Origin: Polynucleobacter sp. MWH-Loch1C5 | GTDB taxonomy: Bacteria; Pseudomonadota; Gammaproteobacteria; Burkholderiales; Burkholderiaceae | Length of the DNA: 64,000 bases | Assembly: GCF_018881775.1 (NCBI RefSeq) | Contig: NZ_JACVPR010000001.1 | Coordinates: 1,258,318-1,322,317 of the forward strand | Reading direction: 5' to 3' | In this document: one piece after another, positions 5,414-58,893 of the stretch | Layout: every line of letters begins with the position of its first letter | Position numbering within the stretch: position 1 is the stretch's first letter | Translations under genes and position numbers: made by a program | Notes under the pieces: generated by a model | Told to the model about the DNA's origin: nothing | The model's database searches: none | Seen by the model: only the letters and a program-made list of their open reading frames with translations

Positions 5414-6895
5414 ATGCAAATGACAGACTTGATCGCTATGTTGCCCGAGTTGGTGATGCTTGTGATCACCTGCTTGATGCTGCTGACTGTTTTCATTAAA
5501 GAGCAAAAAGTCAATGATGAAGATGTTTTTGAGACTCCTCGTGCGAGTCAATTGACCTATCAACTGACATTAGTCACCTTATTGGGCTTAAGTTTTGCTT
5601 TTGGTTTGCAGGCAGTCGACCAGCCAGTACATGCCTTTAATAATATGTTCTTGGTTGATGCGCTATCTAGCTTATTAAAGTCTGTCGCTTGTTTAGCATT
5701 ACTGATTAGCTTGATTTATTCAAAGCAATACTTAGTCGATCGTGGCTTGTTTAGAGTTGATTTCTTTGCTCTCACGATGCTGTCTTTGTTGGGCCAGTGT
5801 ATTTTGATTTCAGGCTCTAACTTAATGAGTCTGTATCTTGGCTTAGAGTTAATGGCTTTGCCTGTCTATGCGCTCGTTGCTATGCAAAGAGATTCGCGCT
5901 GGAGTATTGAGGCGGCGATGAAGTATTTTGTACTCGGTGCTATGGCTTCTGGTTTCTTGCTCTACGGTATGTCGATGCTCTATGGTGCGACAGGTAGCCT
6001 AGACCTCAATGAAATTTATAGAGCAGTCGGTAGCGGTGGTATCAACCGTTTGGTCTTGGCGTTTGCAGTTGTATTCATTGTCTCTGGTTTGGCATTCAAG
6101 CTGGGTACGGTGCCGTATCACATGTGGGTACCTGATGTATATCAGGGTGCTCCTACCGCGGTTACGCTCTTAATTGCTGGTGCACCTAAATTGGCGGCAT
6201 TTGCTTTGGTCTTCCGTCTCTTGGTGGGTGGTTTATTGCCTCTGACTGCTGATTGGCAGCCGATGATTATGATCTTGGCCGTTTTATCATTGATCGTCGG
6301 TAACCTGACTGCGATTGCGCAAAGCAATCTGAAACGTATGTTGGCGTACTCGACTATTTCGCATATGGGTTTCATGATTTTAGGTATGTTGTCCATCTTT
6401 GATCAGCATGCCTATACTGCGGCATTGTTTTACGCAGTGACTTATGTGCTCACTACTTTGGGTTCATTTGGCCTCTTGATGCTCTTATCGCGTCAGGGCT
6501 ATGAGTGTGAAACACTCGATGACTTAAAAGGCTTGAATAAGAGAAATCCATGGATGGCCTTTATTGGTTTGATATTAATGTTCTCTCTAGCAGGTATTCC
6601 GCCAACCGTTGGCTTTGCTGCTAAGTTATCGATCTTGGAAACGATTGTTGATGCGGGTTATCTCTACCTGGCTATCATTGCAGTGCTCACCTCTTTGATC
6701 GGTGCTTTTTATTACCTCAGAGTCGTCAAAGTCATGTACTTTGATGAGCCTATTCAGACTGAAGCGATTGCCGCTCAGGGTATAGCTAAAGCGATTTTTA
6801 CTGTGAATGGCTTATTTGTTTTGTTGGCCGGTATTTTCCCTGCCACTTTAATGGCTTTGTGTTTGAGTGCGATGAGTAAAACTCTGTTAAGCTAA
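5414..6895 (+). CDS. nuoN: NADH-quinone oxidoreductase subunit N
   Basis: Third antiporter-like subunit of complex I (493 residues, about 14 transmembrane helices). Diagnostic segments are [16 protein letters not shown], the proton-channel lysine in [21 protein letters not shown], and [13 protein letters not shown]. The start at 5414 is preceded by a purine-rich AAGGAA at about nine bases. It is the last nuo gene and is followed after four bases by the DUF2818 gene, so transcription probably continues. Confidence 0.97.
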
Positions 6896-6899
6896 TTCT

Positions 6900-7211
6900 A
6901 TGCAGCCAGTCACACTAAGCATTGAGTCTTGGATATTTATATTGGTCGCCCTCGTGGCGGCCAATTTACCTTTCTTGTCCCAAAAATTTTTATTTATCGT
7001 CAGACTCAATAAAAAGCATATCGGCTGGTGTTTGTTAGAAATGTTAGTTTGGTATGCTGTGGTTGGGTTCATCGCTTATGCATTAGAGGCCTCGATTGGC
7101 AATGTTTTTGCTAAACGTTGGGAGTTTTTTGCAATCACGATCAGTCTTTTCTTAGTGGCCGCCTTTCCTGGTTTTACTTGGCGCTTCTTGCTTAAACATC
7201 GCGCCGAATAG
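6900..7211 (+). CDS. DUF2818 family small membrane protein
   Basis: A 103-residue integral membrane protein of unknown function with about three hydrophobic helices and a basic loop (NKKHIGW) after the first. The family is found directly downstream of nuoN in Burkholderiales, and the same position is seen here, four bases after the nuoN stop. This constant linkage suggests a role connected to complex I assembly or stability, but nothing in the sequence shows a catalytic site. The stop codon overlaps the next gene's GTG start by one base. Confidence 0.85.
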   Translation: MQPVTLSIESWIFILVALVAANLPFLSQKFLFIVRLNKKHIGWCLLEMLVWYAVVGFIAYALEASIGNVFAKRWEFFAITISLFLVAAFPGFTWRFLLKHRAE

Positions 7212-7795
7212 TGAAGCCCCCACAACTGCAAGACCTGCCTGAAAGTGATGCGCATTTGCGCGAGACCTGTACCTCATCTGCTGAGGTTTATCAGGGTCAG
7301 TTTTTAAAAGTCAAAAAAGATATCGTGCGTTTGCCCGATGGCCAAGAACACTTTCGTGAGTACTTTGTTCATCCTGGTGCAGTCGCCATCGTGCCGATTT
7401 TGCCGGATGGTCGTATCTTGTTAGAAAGACAGTTTCGCTATCCAGTCGATGCTGCCATGATTGAGATCCCCGCAGGCAAGCTAGATCCCAATGAAGATCC
7501 TTTGGTGTGTGCCCAGCGTGAACTCAAAGAAGAGACTGGCTATACCGCGACAGAATGGTCCTACCTGGGTAGGATTCATCCTGTGATTTCTTATTCGACA
7601 GAAATCATCGAAATTTACATGGCAAAAAATTTAGTGCAGGGGACAGCAAAATTGGATGCTGGGGAGTTCCTTGATGTGTTTGCCGCCACCCTCAGTGAGA
7701 TGCATGAATGGATCGCCACCGGGCAAATTACCGATGTCAAAACCATTATCGCGGTCTATCATCTCAGTCGTTTGCCGCAGTTTCGGGACATGTAA
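7211..7795 (+). CDS. Nudix hydrolase, ADP-ribose pyrophosphatase type
   Basis: Cytoplasmic nucleotide-diphosphate-sugar hydrolase. The Nudix box (G-x5-E-x7-RE-x2-EE-x-G) is complete at residues 89-111, with Gly89, Glu95, Arg103-Glu104 and Glu107-Glu108. An upstream segment IPILPDGRILLERQFRYPVD-like strand pattern and the following EIPAGK are typical of ADP-ribose pyrophosphatases (NudF-like). The GTG start overlaps the stop of the preceding gene, so it is translated with the end of the nuo operon. Exact substrate (ADP-ribose or another ADP-sugar) cannot be told from sequence alone. Confidence 0.9.
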   Translation: MKPPQLQDLPESDAHLRETCTSSAEVYQGQFLKVKKDIVRLPDGQEHFREYFVHPGAVAIVPILPDGRILLERQFRYPVDAAMIEIPAGKLDPNEDPLVCAQRELKEETGYTATEWSYLGRIHPVISYSTEIIEIYMAKNLVQGTAKLDAGEFLDVFAATLSEMHEWIATGQITDVKTIIAVYHLSRLPQFRDM

Positions 7796-7892
7796 GATAG
7801 TCTTGGTTTCAACAAGACGGAAGAGGCAAAAAATAGCCTTAGTTTTTGAAGATTACTTGCCTTAATTGTGCGCTGCAAAATAAAATAGCGTT

Positions 7893-8858
7893 ATGGCCAA
7901 TTTCATCGATCCTGCAATCCTATTTTTCGTTTTCGGCTTTTTTGCTGGCTTTGTTAAATCGAATCTAGAGATTCCTCCGCAAATCTCCCGTTTCTTATCT
8001 CTCTATCTTTTGATGGCTTTGGGGTTAAAGGGTGGTTTTGCTCTCGCACAATCAGGTTTCACAGCGCATGTGGCGCTGAGCTTGGGTATTGCAGTATTTA
8101 TGGCCATCTTGGTGCCGTTGGTCGCTTATTCATTACTGAGTCGAGTCATCAGCCGTTTTGACGCGGCTGCTTTAGCCGCCACTTATGGCTCAGTGAGTGC
8201 GGTCACTTTCATTACTGCCACCCAACACTTAGATCAGTCGGGTATTGCCTATGGGGGCCATATGGCCGCGGCGATGGCTTTGATGGAATCCCCAGCGATC
8301 ATCATTGCGATCCTTTTTGCGAATCGCGTACGTCAGTCTCAGGCCAATGGTCAACAAGTAGAAAATGTGAGCATCGGTAAATTACTTCACGAGTCATTTA
8401 CCGATGGAGCACAGCTCTTGCTCTTGGGGGCGATGGTGGTCGGTTTGGCTACAGGGGATGGTGGTCAAAAAGTCATGGGCCCGTTTTCTGTTGATTTATT
8501 TAAAGGGATGTTGGCCTTCTTCCTCTTAGATATGGGTTTGACAGCGGCACGCAACTTTAAGAGTGTGCTCAGCCAATCATTCTTTGTGGCACTTTATGGG
8601 GTCGTCGCTCCGATCACCCATGCGATGGTGGCACTCGGGCTTTGTTATATCTTTGGCCTGCCTCTCGGTGAGACAGTCTTGCTGATGGTTTTGGCAGCCA
8701 GTGCCTCTTACATTGCCGTGCCTGCAGTGCTTCGAGAGTCCATGCCGGAGGCCAACCCAGGTCTTTACTTTGGCATGTCTTTAGGGCTCACATTTCCCCT
8801 CAACATCATTGTGGGTATACCGCTCTACACTTGGATTGCGGAACAAGTGATACGCTAG
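7893..8858 (+). CDS. sbtA: SbtA-type sodium-dependent bicarbonate permease family
   Basis: Membrane protein of 321 residues with about ten transmembrane segments, of the DUF897/SbtA family of sodium-dependent bicarbonate transporters. Family hallmarks are FGFFAGFVKSNLEIP near the N-terminus, the G-S-V-S-A-V-T-F helix (about residue 108) and the second-half repeat GASAS/YIAVPAVLRESMPEANP. It is shorter than cyanobacterial SbtA (about 370 residues), mainly through a shorter central loop. No adjacent sbtB regulator gene was found. Bicarbonate transport is known for cyanobacterial members; for this heterotroph-like context the substrate is inferred. Confidence 0.85.
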   Translation: MANFIDPAILFFVFGFFAGFVKSNLEIPPQISRFLSLYLLMALGLKGGFALAQSGFTAHVALSLGIAVFMAILVPLVAYSLLSRVISRFDAAALAATYGSVSAVTFITATQHLDQSGIAYGGHMAAAMALMESPAIIIAILFANRVRQSQANGQQVENVSIGKLLHESFTDGAQLLLLGAMVVGLATGDGGQKVMGPFSVDLFKGMLAFFLLDMGLTAARNFKSVLSQSFFVALYGVVAPITHAMVALGLCYIFGLPLGETVLLMVLAASASYIAVPAVLRESMPEANPGLYFGMSLGLTFPLNIIVGIPLYTWIAEQVIR

Positions 8859-8898
8859 GCTTTGTTAAGGGAATACCCCTAGCCTCAAGTTGTATCAC
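8847..8898 (+). terminator. Nested inverted repeat at the end of sbtA
   Basis: Three nested pairs of arms begin just before the sbtA stop codon: GTGATAC (8847-8853) with GTATCAC (8892-8898), AGGCT (8857-8861) with AGCCT (8881-8885), and AGGG (8868-8871) with CCCT (8877-8880). Together they could form one long interrupted hairpin. There is no clear T-run afterwards, so it may be a transcript-stabilising end or a Rho-dependent stop rather than a classical intrinsic terminator. Confidence 0.45.
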
Positions 8899-8964
8899 TT
8901 AGTGTCCAATACAGGCTGTTTTGAGAGATCTTCTCTAAAAAAGCCCCCATAGTCGAGTTCAATA

Positions 8965-51486: not shown

Positions 51487-51504
51487 CTGTCATCATCCTG
51501 TCAT
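51487..51504 (+). promoter_or_regulatory. Perfect tandem PhoB box upstream of arsR
   Basis: CTGTCAT (51487-51493), CATC, CTGTCAT (51498-51504): two identical 7-base repeats set 11 bases apart, the exact form of the Pho box. It is followed after 10 bases by a TATTAT -10 hexamer (51515-51520), the spacing expected of a PhoB-activated promoter with no -35. PhoB is encoded about 7 kb downstream. Confidence 0.7.
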
Positions 51505-51528
51505 ATATTTCCATTATTATGGAAATAT
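51505..51528 (+). promoter_or_regulatory. arsR: Palindromic ArsR operator overlapping -10 and start codon
   Basis: Perfect 10-base inverted repeat ATATTTCCAT (51505-51514) and ATGGAAATAT (51519-51528) with spacer TATT. The spacer plus AT forms the -10 hexamer (TATTAT, 51515-51520) and the right arm covers the first two bases of the arsR ATG (51527). Binding here would block RNA polymerase, as expected for an autoregulating ArsR repressor. The likely transcription start is at or near the ATG, giving a leaderless message. Confidence 0.75.
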
Positions 51529-51856
51529 GAAAAATACGGACGCTATCCAAGCCTTCATTGCCTTAGGTCAAGAATCTAGACTCAATGTCTTTCGCCTCAT
51601 AGTGCAAAAAGGGGATGAAGGTTTAACCCCATCACAAATCAAAGAAAAGTTAGGCATACCTTCAGCCACTTTATCTTTTCATCTCAAAGAACTCTATCAA
51701 GCCAATTTAATTGTGGTTGAGCGTCAAAGTCGTCATTTGATCTATCGACCCAACCCCAAACAACTTCAATCTTTATTGGATTTTCTGCTCTTTAACTGTT
51801 GCAGCGGTAAAGGTTGTGATTTGCCAACATTAAAAACCAAAAAGGCCTCACTATGA
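51527..51856 (+). CDS. arsR: Arsenic-responsive repressor, ArsR/SmtB family
   Basis: Winged-helix repressor released by arsenite (109 residues). The helix-turn-helix spans about residues 35-55 (SQIKEKLGIPSATLSFHLKEL). Unlike E. coli ArsR it has no Cys pair in that helix; the likely As(III) site is Cys91, Cys92 and Cys97 near the C-terminus, like the type known from Acidithiobacillus ArsR. The family start AIQAFIALGQESRL supports the ATG at 51527. It overlaps arsI by four bases and heads arsR-arsI-arsC-aqpS. Confidence 0.92.
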   Translation: MKNTDAIQAFIALGQESRLNVFRLIVQKGDEGLTPSQIKEKLGIPSATLSFHLKELYQANLIVVERQSRHLIYRPNPKQLQSLLDFLLFNCCSGKGCDLPTLKTKKASL

Positions 51857-52314
51857 AGCGGATGCATATTCATATTGCTGTTACAGATTTAGATGCAAGT
51901 ATTAATTTTTATAGCAAGATGTTTGCGCAAGACCCCACCATACGTAAAGCTGATTATGCAAAGTGGCAGTTAGATAATCCACGCATCAACTTTGCCATAT
52001 CTGCTCGCGGCGCAAAAGAAGGTCTCAATCATTTAGGTATCCAGGTTGAAGATAACGCTGAATTAGTAGAAATGAAGGCTCGTTTAGACTCTCTTCAAGG
52101 TGAGCTCATTGAGGAGCAGGGGGCTGCCTGTTGTTATGCTCAGTCAGATAAATATTGGGTCAATGATCCAAGTGGTATCGCTTGGGAAACCTTTCATACA
52201 CTAGATAGCATCCCTGTTTTTAATACAAGTGGTGATGACGCTAGTTGTTGCGTCCCACAGCCTACTGCTGTGGGGGTTTCTATAGCCAATATTCAAAAAA
52301 AATCATGTAATTAA
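51853..52314 (+). CDS. arsI: ArsI/CadI-type glyoxalase-fold protein (C-As lyase family)
   Basis: Vicinal-oxygen-chelate (VOC) domain protein of 153 residues. Known ArsI members are non-haem iron dioxygenases that cleave the carbon-arsenic bond of methylated or aromatic trivalent arsenicals. Likely metal ligands are His5, His60 and Glu112, and the vicinal pair Cys93-Cys94 would bind the arsenical. A second CC pair lies near residue 132. Others in this family are annotated CadI (cadmium-induced). The operon context favours arsenic. Confidence 0.85.
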   Translation: MKRMHIHIAVTDLDASINFYSKMFAQDPTIRKADYAKWQLDNPRINFAISARGAKEGLNHLGIQVEDNAELVEMKARLDSLQGELIEEQGAACCYAQSDKYWVNDPSGIAWETFHTLDSIPVFNTSGDDASCCVPQPTAVGVSIANIQKKSCN

Positions 52315-52329
52315 TTAGGGAGAGTATTT

Positions 52330-52821
52330 ATGAAAACCTACAACATTCTATTTCTGTGTACGCATAATTCAGCACGTTCTGTGATCGGGGAAGTCCTAGC
52401 CACGCAAATGTCTGGGGGAAAATTCATTGGCTATTCGGCAGGTTCAACGCCTGGAGGAAGAGTCAATCCATTTGCGGTAGAGATCGCTGAGTCCCTAGGC
52501 TATGACACAAGTAAGCTCAGATCAAAAAGTTGGGATGAGTTTGCGGCACCCGGTGCTCCTCAGATGGATTTCATCATCACTGTGTGTGATAGTGCTGCAG
52601 GCGAGCAATGCCCTTATTGGCCTGGTAAGCCCGCTACTGCTCACTGGGGGTATCCAGATCCATCGGCCGTGCAGGGCAGCGATGAAGATAAGCGTGCCGC
52701 ATTTAAACAAGTGGAGATGGGTCTGAAGCGACGCTTGCAAATACTCATGAATTTGCCCCTCGAAAAATTAGACACCATGTCACTCAATCAAGAGCTCAAA
52801 CGTATTGCGACGGAGAATTAA
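52330..52821 (+). CDS. arsC: Arsenate reductase, low-molecular-weight phosphatase type
   Basis: Reduces arsenate to arsenite using a phosphatase-like loop. The P-loop C10-T-H-N-S-A-R16 is followed by S17, and the general acid Asp lies in the late DPSAV segment. Extra cysteines in VCDSAAGEQCPYW suggest a thiol relay with thioredoxin or glutaredoxin. At 163 residues it is somewhat longer than the B. subtilis type, like those of Pseudomonas and rhizobia. A GGGAGAG site is about seven bases before the ATG. Confidence 0.92.
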   Translation: MKTYNILFLCTHNSARSVIGEVLATQMSGGKFIGYSAGSTPGGRVNPFAVEIAESLGYDTSKLRSKSWDEFAAPGAPQMDFIITVCDSAAGEQCPYWPGKPATAHWGYPDPSAVQGSDEDKRAAFKQVEMGLKRRLQILMNLPLEKLDTMSLNQELKRIATEN

Positions 52822-53478
52822 ATGCCAAGCTTGAGAGTGCAAGTGCTTGCAGAATATTTTGGTACTTTGTTGCTACTCGCTATTGTGGCCGGTTCTGGTC
52901 ACATGGGCGAAACCTTAGGTGCGGGTAATGCAGCCGTCGCACTCTTAGGCAATAGTATTGCCACAGGTGCAGGGCTCTTGGTTCTGATTACGCTCTTAGG
53001 ACCCATTTCAGGGGCGCATTTCAATCCGGTAGTGACCCTCATGTTTTGGGTACAAAAAGAATACGGCATCCAAAAAGCACTGAGCTTCATCGCAGCTCAA
53101 TTCACAGGTGCTATTTCAGGTATTTGGCTCACGCACTTTATGTTTGGTTTGGAGATTCTGCAAAGCTCGAGTAAGCAGAGAACGGGGCCCGGTATTTGGT
53201 TGAGTGAGTTTGTCTCTACCCTGATACTGTTGGGCGTGATTTATCTTGCGATTCGTGTGGCCAAAGACAAGGTGGCATTATTGGTGGCGATGGTTGTGAC
53301 CTCGGGCTATTGGTTTACTTCTTCGACATTCTTTAGTAATCCTGCTGTGACGGTAGCCAGAAGCCTCAGTAACACCTTTGTGGGTATCAGCCCAGTGGAT
53401 ATCCCAGGTTTTATCTTGGCTCAGCTAGCTGCCGTAGTCCTCATGGGATTTGTCATTTCTGCTTTCAAAAAGCCGTAG
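52822..53478 (+). CDS. aqpS: Aquaglyceroporin-type channel, likely arsenite exit (AqpS-like)
   Basis: MIP-family channel of 218 residues with six helices and both pore motifs: NPVVT in the first half (a variant of NPA) and NPAVTVARS in the second. In Sinorhizobium an ars operon carries aqpS, whose channel lets arsenite formed by ArsC leave the cell down its gradient. It begins directly after the arsC stop. No arsB or acr3 pump gene is present here, so this channel probably takes that role. Confidence 0.87.
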   Translation: MPSLRVQVLAEYFGTLLLLAIVAGSGHMGETLGAGNAAVALLGNSIATGAGLLVLITLLGPISGAHFNPVVTLMFWVQKEYGIQKALSFIAAQFTGAISGIWLTHFMFGLEILQSSSKQRTGPGIWLSEFVSTLILLGVIYLAIRVAKDKVALLVAMVVTSGYWFTSSTFFSNPAVTVARSLSNTFVGISPVDIPGFILAQLAAVVLMGFVISAFKKP

Positions 53479-53581
53479 ATGAGGGGATCTATCCCCCATA
53501 AATCAAAAGGATTTTTTATATAAGATACTGTTTTATATAGTCTTTTAATATTAATCCTGAGTAATGAATTTCCTCTGTGAA

Positions 53582-53614
53582 TGTCACAAAACTTTCACAT
53601 ATCCTAGGTATCGT
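53582..53614 (+). promoter_or_regulatory. Pho box and -10 upstream of pstS
   Basis: TGTCACA (53582-53588) and TTTCACA (53593-53599) are repeats 11 bases apart, with a TATCGT -10 candidate at 53609-53614. pstS is the standard PhoB target. The rest of the 170-base gap after aqpS holds a short GGGGA/TCCCC hairpin (53483-53496) and an AT-rich inverted repeat (53517-53539). Confidence 0.65.
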
Positions 53615-53659
53615 TCACTTGTGTTGCATGGGCAGCACATTTAATGAATGAGGAAATAT

Positions 53660-54685
53660 ATGAAAGCTATTTTGACCAGATCTTTAGTTGCAGGTGTCTT
53701 TGCACTTTCAACAGTAACAGCATTTGCCGCTGACATCACGGGCGCAGGTGCAACATTCCCATATCCGATCTATGCGAAGTGGGCAGAGGCCTACAAAGCC
53801 AAGACACGTAATGGTTTGAACTATCAATCTATCGGCTCATCTGGCGGTGTCAAGCAGATCAAAGCTAAAACAGTTGATTTTGGTGCCACAGATAATCCTG
53901 TGAAGTTTGAAGATCTCGAAAAAGACGGTATGGTGCAATTCCCAGCCATCATTGGTGGCGTAGTACCTATTATTAACGTCGATGGTATCAAGCCAGGCCA
54001 GATCAAAGTCACTGGCGACATTTTGGCTCAGATGTTCATGGGTTATATCGTTAACTGGAATGACAAGCAAATTGCTGCCTTGAACCCAGGTGTGAAGTTG
54101 CCCGATGCCAGCATTACTGTAGTGCACCGTGCTGACGGTTCAGGTACTACAGCGATCTTTACAGACTATTTAGCTAAAGTGAACCCAACATGGAAAAAAG
54201 ATGTGGGTGCTGGTGCTGCTGTGAAATGGCCTGCGGCTTCTTCAGTTGGTGGTAAGGGTAACGAAGGTGTCGCTGCTAACGTGGGCCGTATCAAGAACTC
54301 CATCGGTTATGTTGAGTATGCTTACGCTAAGAAAAATAAGATGACACATTTGACATTGCGCAATGCTGCAGGTCAATTTGTGGAGCCTGATGATGAGACA
54401 TTTGCTGCTGCAGCAGCAGGCACAGACTGGGCCAAAATTCCTGGTATGGGTACATTCATTACGAATGCTCCAGGTGCTAAGTCATGGCCAATCACAGGTG
54501 CATCATTCATCTTGATGTACAAGCAGCCTACTAACAAAGCCAACGCTGCAGAAGTGATTAAGTTCTTTGACTTTGCTTTCAAAGAAGGTAAGAAGATGGC
54601 TGCTGAGTTGGACTACGTGCCAATGCCAGATGCTACGACTGACTTCATTCGTAAGAATATTTGGACGCAAATCAACACCAAATAA
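53660..54685 (+). CDS. pstS: Phosphate ABC transporter substrate-binding protein
   Basis: High-affinity periplasmic phosphate-binding protein. The ATG at 53660 is chosen (AGGAA four bases upstream) over one four codons earlier; it opens a signal peptide ending TVTAFAA. The mature start DITGAGATFPYPIYAKW and the phosphate-contact motif RADGSGTTAIFTDYL are typical. Arsenate can also bind PstS, which fits the arsenic cassette next door. A strong terminator separates it from pstC. Confidence 0.96.
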   Translation: MKAILTRSLVAGVFALSTVTAFAADITGAGATFPYPIYAKWAEAYKAKTRNGLNYQSIGSSGGVKQIKAKTVDFGATDNPVKFEDLEKDGMVQFPAIIGGVVPIINVDGIKPGQIKVTGDILAQMFMGYIVNWNDKQIAALNPGVKLPDASITVVHRADGSGTTAIFTDYLAKVNPTWKKDVGAGAAVKWPAASSVGGKGNEGVAANVGRIKNSIGYVEYAYAKKNKMTHLTLRNAAGQFVEPDDETFAAAAAGTDWAKIPGMGTFITNAPGAKSWPITGASFILMYKQPTNKANAAEVIKFFDFAFKEGKKMAAELDYVPMPDATTDFIRKNIWTQINTK

Positions 54686-58182: not shown

Positions 58183-58893
58183 ATGGCAAGTAGTATCTTA
58201 ATTGTTGAAGATGAACCCTCTATTGCTGAGCTCATTGCAGTTAATTTAAGCCATGCGGGCTTTTTGCCGGTGCGGGCGTTTCAAACAGAGCAAGCCTCGC
58301 AATTAATGAAGGAGGTCTTACCTGATTTAGTTGTGCTCGATTGGATGTTGCCAGGTAAGTCCGGAGTGCAGTTTGCGAAAGAACTCAGAGCTAACGAGCG
58401 CACTAAAGATATCCCCATTATTTTACTGACAGCCCGTAGTGAGGAGATGGACAAGATTGCAGGCTTGGAGGCGGGGGCGGATGATTACATCACTAAACCT
58501 TTCTCACCCAAAGAGCTCGTTGCTCGTATACGTGCCGTATTGCGACGCAGAGCTCCTCAGTTGGCAGACGAAGTGGTGCAGATCAATCAATTGAGGCTAG
58601 ATCCAGTATCGCATCGTGTGACTGCCCAAGCTGATGGTCATGAATCTACCTTGGATCTGGGGCCTACTGAGTTCAGGCTACTTCATTTCTTGATGACTCA
58701 TCCAGAACGAGTTCACTCTAGGAGCCAGTTATTGGATAAGGTATGGGGTGACCATGTCTTTGTTGAAGAGCGCACGGTGGATGTACATATTAAGCGTCTT
58801 AGAGCTGCTTTAGCCCCAGCAGGCTGCCAAAACTTGATAGAAACAGTGCGTGGTAGCGGCTATCGTTTAACTAAAAACCCGGTGCTTGAATAG
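58183..58893 (+). CDS. phoB: Phosphate regulon response regulator PhoB
   Basis: OmpR-type activator that binds Pho boxes when phosphorylated by PhoR. The receiver domain has acidic Glu9-Asp10, phospho-acceptor Asp53 (VVLDWMLPG) and ITKPFSPKEL. The winged-helix effector has EERTVDVHIKRLRAAL and RGSGYRL. It ends with a strong terminator, so phoR, 2 kb away, is not simply co-transcribed. Confidence 0.96.
   Translation: MASSILIVEDEPSIAELIAVNLSHAGFLPVRAFQTEQASQLMKEVLPDLVVLDWMLPGKSGVQFAKELRANERTKDIPIILLTARSEEMDKIAGLEAGADDYITKPFSPKELVARIRAVLRRRAPQLADEVVQINQLRLDPVSHRVTAQADGHESTLDLGPTEFRLLHFLMTHPERVHSRSQLLDKVWGDHVFVEERTVDVHIKRLRAALAPAGCQNLIETVRGSGYRLTKNPVLE

Follow-up and report, generated by a model that had tools for sequence, protein, structure and literature searches.

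The window, by which we mean the whole 64-kb stretch of DNA analysed here, carries a run of plus-strand genes in the order folP, glmM, arsR, an arsI/cadI-type gene, arsC, a MIP-family channel gene, pstS, pstC-, pstA- and pstB-like ORFs, a phoU-like ORF and phoB (Table 1). The names folP, glmM, pstC, pstA, pstB and phoU were assigned from sequence features and are presumptive. The first gene of the arsenic operon with arsC is arsR, whose product exceeded the cut-offs of the Pfam models HTH_20 and HTH_5 and scored 54.9 bits against NCBIfam model NF033788 (cut-off 55). Three C-terminal cysteines of this protein are in register with the solved ArsR 6j05, and we take them to be the arsenite ligands. 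At the far end of the run, the DNA-binding domain of the phoB product matched E. coli PhoB structures, including 1gxp, with an E-value of about 3e-37. The MIP-family channel gene (52822-53478) stands where several of the examined relatives have an Acr3-like transporter; arsenite may leave the cell by a channel instead of a pump in this operon.

The gap between glmM and arsR, 59 nt on the same strand, holds two CTGTCAT repeats, a TATTAT hexamer and a palindrome. The first-pass annotation of this DNA had described the repeats as lying 11 bp apart upstream of arsR, which they do, starting at 51487 and 51498. It had also described a palindrome with the -10 element as its spacer; the perfect 10+10 arms reaching the ATG were found as described, but the spacer is TATT only, and the -10 hexamer runs from this 4-nt spacer two bases into the right arm. 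The palindrome reads ATATTTCCAT-TATT-ATGGAAATAT, with 0 mismatches between the arms, and its right arm ends inside the ATG of arsR at 51527. As a predicted ArsR operator it shares 4 bp with the flank of the Pho box and 2 bp with the start codon. The promoter thus described has a good -10 in TATTAT and no good -35. The exact pair CTGTCAT-N4-CTGTCAT has a single occurrence in the window, which is part of contig 1, and in the 1.65 Mb genome (10 contigs). Looser copies of the pair mean little: at up to 3 mismatches there were 8 in the window versus 6.6 expected, and at up to 2 mismatches there were 16 in the genome versus 5 for the reversed control. The palindrome at up to 3 mismatches appeared in 0 of 100 shuffles of the window, and at fewer than 3 mismatches its place in the genome is unique.

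Table 1. Features of the arsR promoter and of the downstream ars, pst and pho genes, in window coordinates.
Feature	Position	Strand	Basis or remark
Pho box, predicted 22-bp PhoB dimer site	51487..51508	+	half-sites plus 4-nt flank; occupies the -35 place
Pho half-site 1, CTGTCAT	51487-51493	+	read from sequence
Pho half-site 2, CTGTCAT	51498-51504	+	11-bp period relative to half-site 1
Predicted ArsR operator	51505..51528	+	perfect 10-bp arms, 4-nt spacer
-10 element, TATTAT	51515-51520	+	10 nt past half-site 2, 6 nt ahead of ATG
arsR, ArsR/SmtB-type repressor	51527..51856	+	C-terminal CC...C aligned to 6j05
arsI/cadI-type VOC enzyme	51853..52314	+	NF041414 above cut-off
arsC, arsenate reductase, low-molecular-weight phosphatase fold	52330..52821	+	LMWPc above cut-off; arsC models below theirs
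MIP-family channel, AqpS-like operon position	52822..53478	+	Pfam MIP above cut-off; other models below cut-offs
pstS own Pho box, ATGTCACAAAACTTTCACA	53581..53599	+	matrix score 23.2
pstS	53648..54685	+	NCBIfam
pstC-, pstA-, pstB-, phoU-like ORFs	after pstS to 58179	+	named from sequence features
phoB, response regulator	58183..58893	+	alignment of the DNA-binding domain with 1gxp (E. coli PhoB)

A total of 34 pstS upstream regions were collected from the genus, and a 19-nt PhoB-box matrix was trained solely on 33 Polynucleobacter pstS promoters (25 different boxes), with locus L086 excluded since its pstS promoter is arsR-like. Left-out pstS boxes scored 16.9-28.6. The arsR box of the window scored 15.4 on this independent, pstS-trained matrix, which bears out the identification of the repeats as a Pho box; within the window it ranked second after the box of pstS, and the next site scored 10.3. 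Across the window's own genome, the consensus TGTCAYNNNNNNKTCAYA gave 5 matches (reversed control, 0), which lay at arsR, at pstS, twice with overlap in the ppk-ppx gap, and once within a coding ORF; ppk and ppx are presumed names, given to the genes beside the window by sequence features. The gap between these divergent ppk-/ppx-like genes contains three tandem Pho half-sites, TGTCATCGCCATGTCATAAAGAAGTCATA, at G000:C1:1322722-1322750 (locus L267; about window 64405-64433, just beyond the window edge). This suggests that the polyphosphate genes belong to the same putative Pho regulon.

Comparison within the genus was based on a search in which 132 of 151 genomes had a match to ArsR with an E-value of 1e-8 or less. 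Promoter rows were drawn from 30 loci of this search, 106 further matches, a few others, and 26 titled loci with a related ArsR (23 titled Polynucleobacter and 3 titled Burkholderiaceae or Betaproteobacteria bacterium), while most of the weaker ArsR paralogues (E above about 1e-36) were left out. After removal of rows with less than 60 nt upstream or less than 40% identity and merging of identical ones, 150 genus rows and 30 outgroup rows remained, the latter being mainly best-scoring matches in other genera of the family rather than a random draw. L053, counted with the genus rows, bears no title beyond Burkholderiaceae bacterium. Among the 150 are also a fragment (L064), two promoterless paralogues (the second copy in L082, and L184) and L086, where the promoter of arsR itself has no Pho box.

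The matrix was run over 100 nt upstream of arsR in the 150 genus rows, with 1500 dinucleotide shuffles as the control. A score of at least 6 was reached in 120 of the 150 rows, which share ancestry and are not independent cases, versus 1.5% of the shuffles, and 115 of these 120 sites end 21-23 nt ahead of the start codon. When only the expected position was considered, genus rows reached at least 6 in 119, at least 4 in 134 and at least 0 in 142 of 150 cases, and outgroup rows reached at least 0 in 2 of 30; a score of at least 6 anywhere upstream was seen in a single outgroup row (1/30), at a different distance. Of 891 upstream regions of non-arsR ORFs at the genus loci, 28 reached 6, and since these include 7 pstS genes and 14 genes sharing a PPK2-type N-terminus (the Pfam PPK2 call having been checked in L139 only), most are phosphate genes themselves. 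A chance origin of the repeats was set aside on the basis of the shuffle, ORF-upstream and outgroup controls. The fit to a Pho box is incomplete across the genus, in that 16 of 150 arsR rows have no site of at least 4 at the expected place, 31 of 150 have none of at least 6, and half-site 2 is degraded (TGAAAT, TGTAAT) in some clades.

Two further sets of Pho-like boxes were noted in these loci. In L139, a PPK2-family polyphosphate kinase gene near arsR (8031-8936, minus strand) has its own Pho-like box, as has the same gene at other loci of its clade; these boxes score about 9-15 in 14 loci, where the Pfam assignment comes from L139 only. A second Pho-like box farther upstream of arsR, with its end 52-76 nt before the ATG, was present in L010 (which carries tandem boxes), L011, L013, L014, L021, L022 and L041, all of the window's own arsR clade; the corresponding flag was raised in 11 of 150 rows, of which L064 is an artefact.

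Per-position conservation was taken from 148 genus rows unselected for the motif, in preference to a version split by Pho offset, which is biased because its classes were chosen with the matrix. Information content was 0-0.2 bits at -60 to -40, 0.5-0.8 bits over the first half-site (-39 to -34), 0.2-0.4 bits in the spacer and 0.4-1.4 bits over the second half-site (-28 to -23), and it rose to as much as 2 bits in the operator, remaining high over most of that element and into the first codons. These peaks against a decayed flank, in rows that were not selected for them, argue that the repeats are not due to chance. A palindrome with at least 7 of 10 pairs at the fixed geometry is carried by 144 of the 150 rows from the genus and by 17 of the 30 from the outgroup; of 3000 sampled upstream 24-mers used as a control, 31 reached this level. 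Both motifs of the first-pass annotation are therefore conserved in relatives (a Pho site of at least 6 in 120/150 and the operator in 144/150 genus arsR rows). Its placement of a TATTAT -10 at a fitting spacing also agrees with the wider set: the 10-nt gap from half-site 2 is the one found in 32 of 33 pstS promoters, and 115 arsR promoters have gaps of 9 nt (49), 10 nt (30) or 11 nt (36). The -10 ends 6-7 nt ahead of the ATG in 139 of 150 genus rows.

Operator-positive rows differ in what lies upstream of the -10. A TTG -35 at 16-18 nt was present in 5 of 144 such rows from the genus versus 13 of 17 from the outgroup, and in Polynucleobacter a Pho box seems to have taken the place of the -35 throughout the genus. 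The simplest history would start from a promoter with a -35 and an operator that spanned the -10 and took in the start codon, and its -35 would have been exchanged for a Pho box on the Polynucleobacter lineage. An ArsR tree built from sequences of at least 85 residues (145 of the 150 genus rows, 29 of the 30 from the outgroup) set all 29 outgroup rows apart by a branch supported at 100/99; it has few columns, and long branches meet at the outgroup split. On this tree, the label of a Pho site of at least 6 needs 20 changes, which reflect either repeated weakening within the genus or threshold noise. Further outgroup loci were L260-L263 (L258 and L259 repeat L195 and L196). One of these, L260 (G172, another genus of the family), has a Pho-like site scoring 18.4 that ends 44 nt ahead of arsR, and a looser link between arsR and Pho sites may be older than the genus arrangement or may have arisen twice.

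Linkage of ars and pst, as seen in the window, is infrequent: only 9 of 101 genomes (G000, G005, G006, G027, G029, G032, G057, G085 and G090) have arsR at most 5 kb ahead of pstS, a count made from coordinates from which contig breaks may hide a few more cases. No pstS match was obtained in 9 of the 101, all of them drafts. At L086 (G077), pstS sits between a hybrid promoter and arsR (about 6471-8000, minus strand) in the order pstS-arsR-arsC-SBF-family (Acr3-like) transporter. The pstS promoter at this locus, a copy of the hybrid promoter, combines a Pho box scoring 11.5 with an arsR-like operator, and the former arsR start region looks decayed within the pstS leader. Apart from L086 pstS, no arsR-like palindrome was seen by eye in the pstS promoters of the genus.

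Based on the elements, their spacing, their conservation across the genus and the motif held in common with pstS promoters, we consider it probable that the ars promoter is a composite, activated by PhoB, repressed by ArsR and probably leaderless. What we infer for this promoter, namely binding by PhoB and ArsR, a response to phosphate, a leaderless start and AND logic, would operate as follows. Phosphorylated PhoB on 51487-51508 would recruit RNA polymerase despite the poor -35, and arsenite-free ArsR, sitting at 51505-51528 over the -10 and the start codon, would block transcription until arsenite released it. Full expression would then require phosphate starvation, with Pst on and arsenate entering, together with intracellular arsenite produced by ArsC. 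As the predicted PhoB site overlaps the operator by 4 bp, the two proteins could compete. The 5' end of the arsR mRNA would lie at or adjoining the A of the ATG; this mRNA is probably leaderless, given a -10 that ends 6 nt ahead of the ATG and the leaderless arsR of Cupriavidus metallidurans.

How strictly PhoB would control this promoter is less certain. It is tentatively conceivable, at somewhat below even confidence, that the genus, by exchanging the -35 for a Pho box, has rewired ars into a true AND gate, in which the operon belongs obligatorily to the phosphate-starvation regulon and stays silent in high phosphate even with arsenite, and PhoB and ArsR compete on a leaderless promoter. Strict AND logic is one of two live readings, since read-through from glmM and the strong -10 of relatives could give PhoB-independent transcription. 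The other reading, which we regard as possible and distinctly short of probable, is that PhoB modulates rather than gates: arsenite would induce the operon in high phosphate as well, and PhoB would lift the ceiling several-fold. A modulating role is favored by the perfect TATAAT in 72 of 115 arsR promoters, which may fire without PhoB, by the position of glmM immediately upstream on the same strand, from which read-through could yield a PhoB-independent, leadered transcript, and by the degradation of half-site 2 in some clades. The scarcity of a TTG at the right spacing in the genus relative to the outgroup, which leaves a poor -35, and the retention of the half-sites while their flank decayed speak for a stricter dependence on PhoB. 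A further consideration is the route of arsenate entry. Of 61 genomes of the genus, 24 gave a match to Pit-type transporters (PF01384), 23 of them over the cut-off; the window's own genome is among the 24, so that here arsenate may enter with PhoB off and the simple logic is weakened. The other 37 genomes, which include drafts, gave no Pit match, and in these Pst may be the principal route for both phosphate and arsenate.

The remaining explanations concern the identity of the repeats. OmpR-family sites are generally direct repeats, and contact between PhoB and these repeats is a prediction, so a different regulator of that family might bind them; we regard this as improbable because the matrix derives from pstS promoters, a consensus of the same kind matches only pstS, the ppk-ppx gap, arsR and one intragenic site genome-wide, and the PhoB DNA-binding domain encoded here closely matches that of E. 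coli. That the repeats are an extension of the ArsR operator, or a neutral inheritance with no role in the phosphate response, appears very improbable. The genus arsR rows are related, a single supported branch dividing them from the 29 rows of the outgroup, which would allow passive inheritance, yet positions -60 to -40 have decayed while the half-sites keep 0.4-1.4 bits. An extended operator was set aside, as outgroup arsR genes with the same operator are without repeats at that place. Lastly, the location of ars between glmM and pstS in the window would permit the Pho box to belong to the pst operon, with ars riding on the pst promoter. As a general explanation this is hardly tenable and was set aside, given that a separate and stronger box at 53581 serves pstS and that the hybrid promoter occurs genus-wide at arsR genes of which few are linked to pstS.

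Arsenate enters cells via phosphate transporters, and the need for arsenic defence should therefore track phosphate starvation. If the composite promoter operates as proposed, defence would switch on when uptake under phosphate starvation also admits arsenate. In this lake-dwelling genus, arsenic defence and phosphate starvation seem to have been coupled through the exchange of one promoter element, and the genus would offer a clean case of regulatory rewiring in a compact two-input promoter of about 40 bases.

We take the host to be a betaproteobacterium, which places it outside the Alphaproteobacteria that the first-pass annotation had named as precedent. Like other genera of the family, in which 17 of 30 outgroup rows have it, the arsR promoter of Polynucleobacter has an operator over the -10 and a start codon in the right arm; unlike them, it has a Pho box where they have a TTG -35 (13 of the 17 operator-positive rows). 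The Pho box and its 10-nt gap to the -10 resemble those of the 33 Polynucleobacter pstS promoters (32/33 for the gap), which differ in that their leader is longer and carries a GAGGA/AGGA-like stretch ahead of the ATG. Leaderless transcription of arsR has a parallel in the same family, as a passage on Cupriavidus metallidurans names arsR among leaderless mRNAs (PMC7563307).

Among the open-licence PubMed Central titles, abstract openings and passages covered, none gave an account of an arsR promoter that has a Pho box, whether or not the box is nested with the operator, which is weak evidence of absence. Links between arsenic and phosphate genes are described in several of these sources. According to the passages concerned, arsenic islands combine aio, ars, pst and phn genes (PMC3834237; PMC3954881), PhoB, AioR and ArsR are tied to aioBA, phoB and pstS (review, PMC4415409), and a figure legend lists an arsR within Prochlorococcus P-acquisition clusters (PMC10504305). 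In Nodularia, most arsenate-related genes are reported to be without marked change under phosphate limitation, with few exceptions (PMC9846622). The excerpts on Halomonas sp. HAL1 describe PhoB binding to a Pho box just before aioBA and affecting arsenite oxidation in low phosphate (PMC4563254), which resembles the present case in having a Pho box immediately ahead of an arsenic gene; the target there is arsenite oxidase, with no ArsR operator overlap described in those excerpts, and here it is an arsR detoxification operon. In Agrobacterium tumefaciens 5A, ArsR1 represses phoB1 and pstS1, and the ArsR-based control is termed insensitive to environmental phosphate in the available passages (PMC7965956); a review adds that PhoB1 acts on aioXSR and ArsR on pst1/pho1 (PMC7533571). 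As in the Agrobacterium ArsR1/pst1-phoB1 system, an arsenic repressor and phosphate-starvation genes would be wired together in Polynucleobacter. In contrast to Agrobacterium, where, as excerpted, ArsR acts on pst/pho, here the Pho box lies in the ars promoter and is nested with the operator (PMC7965956). The components are thus known, and the nested arrangement and its genus-wide spread look new.
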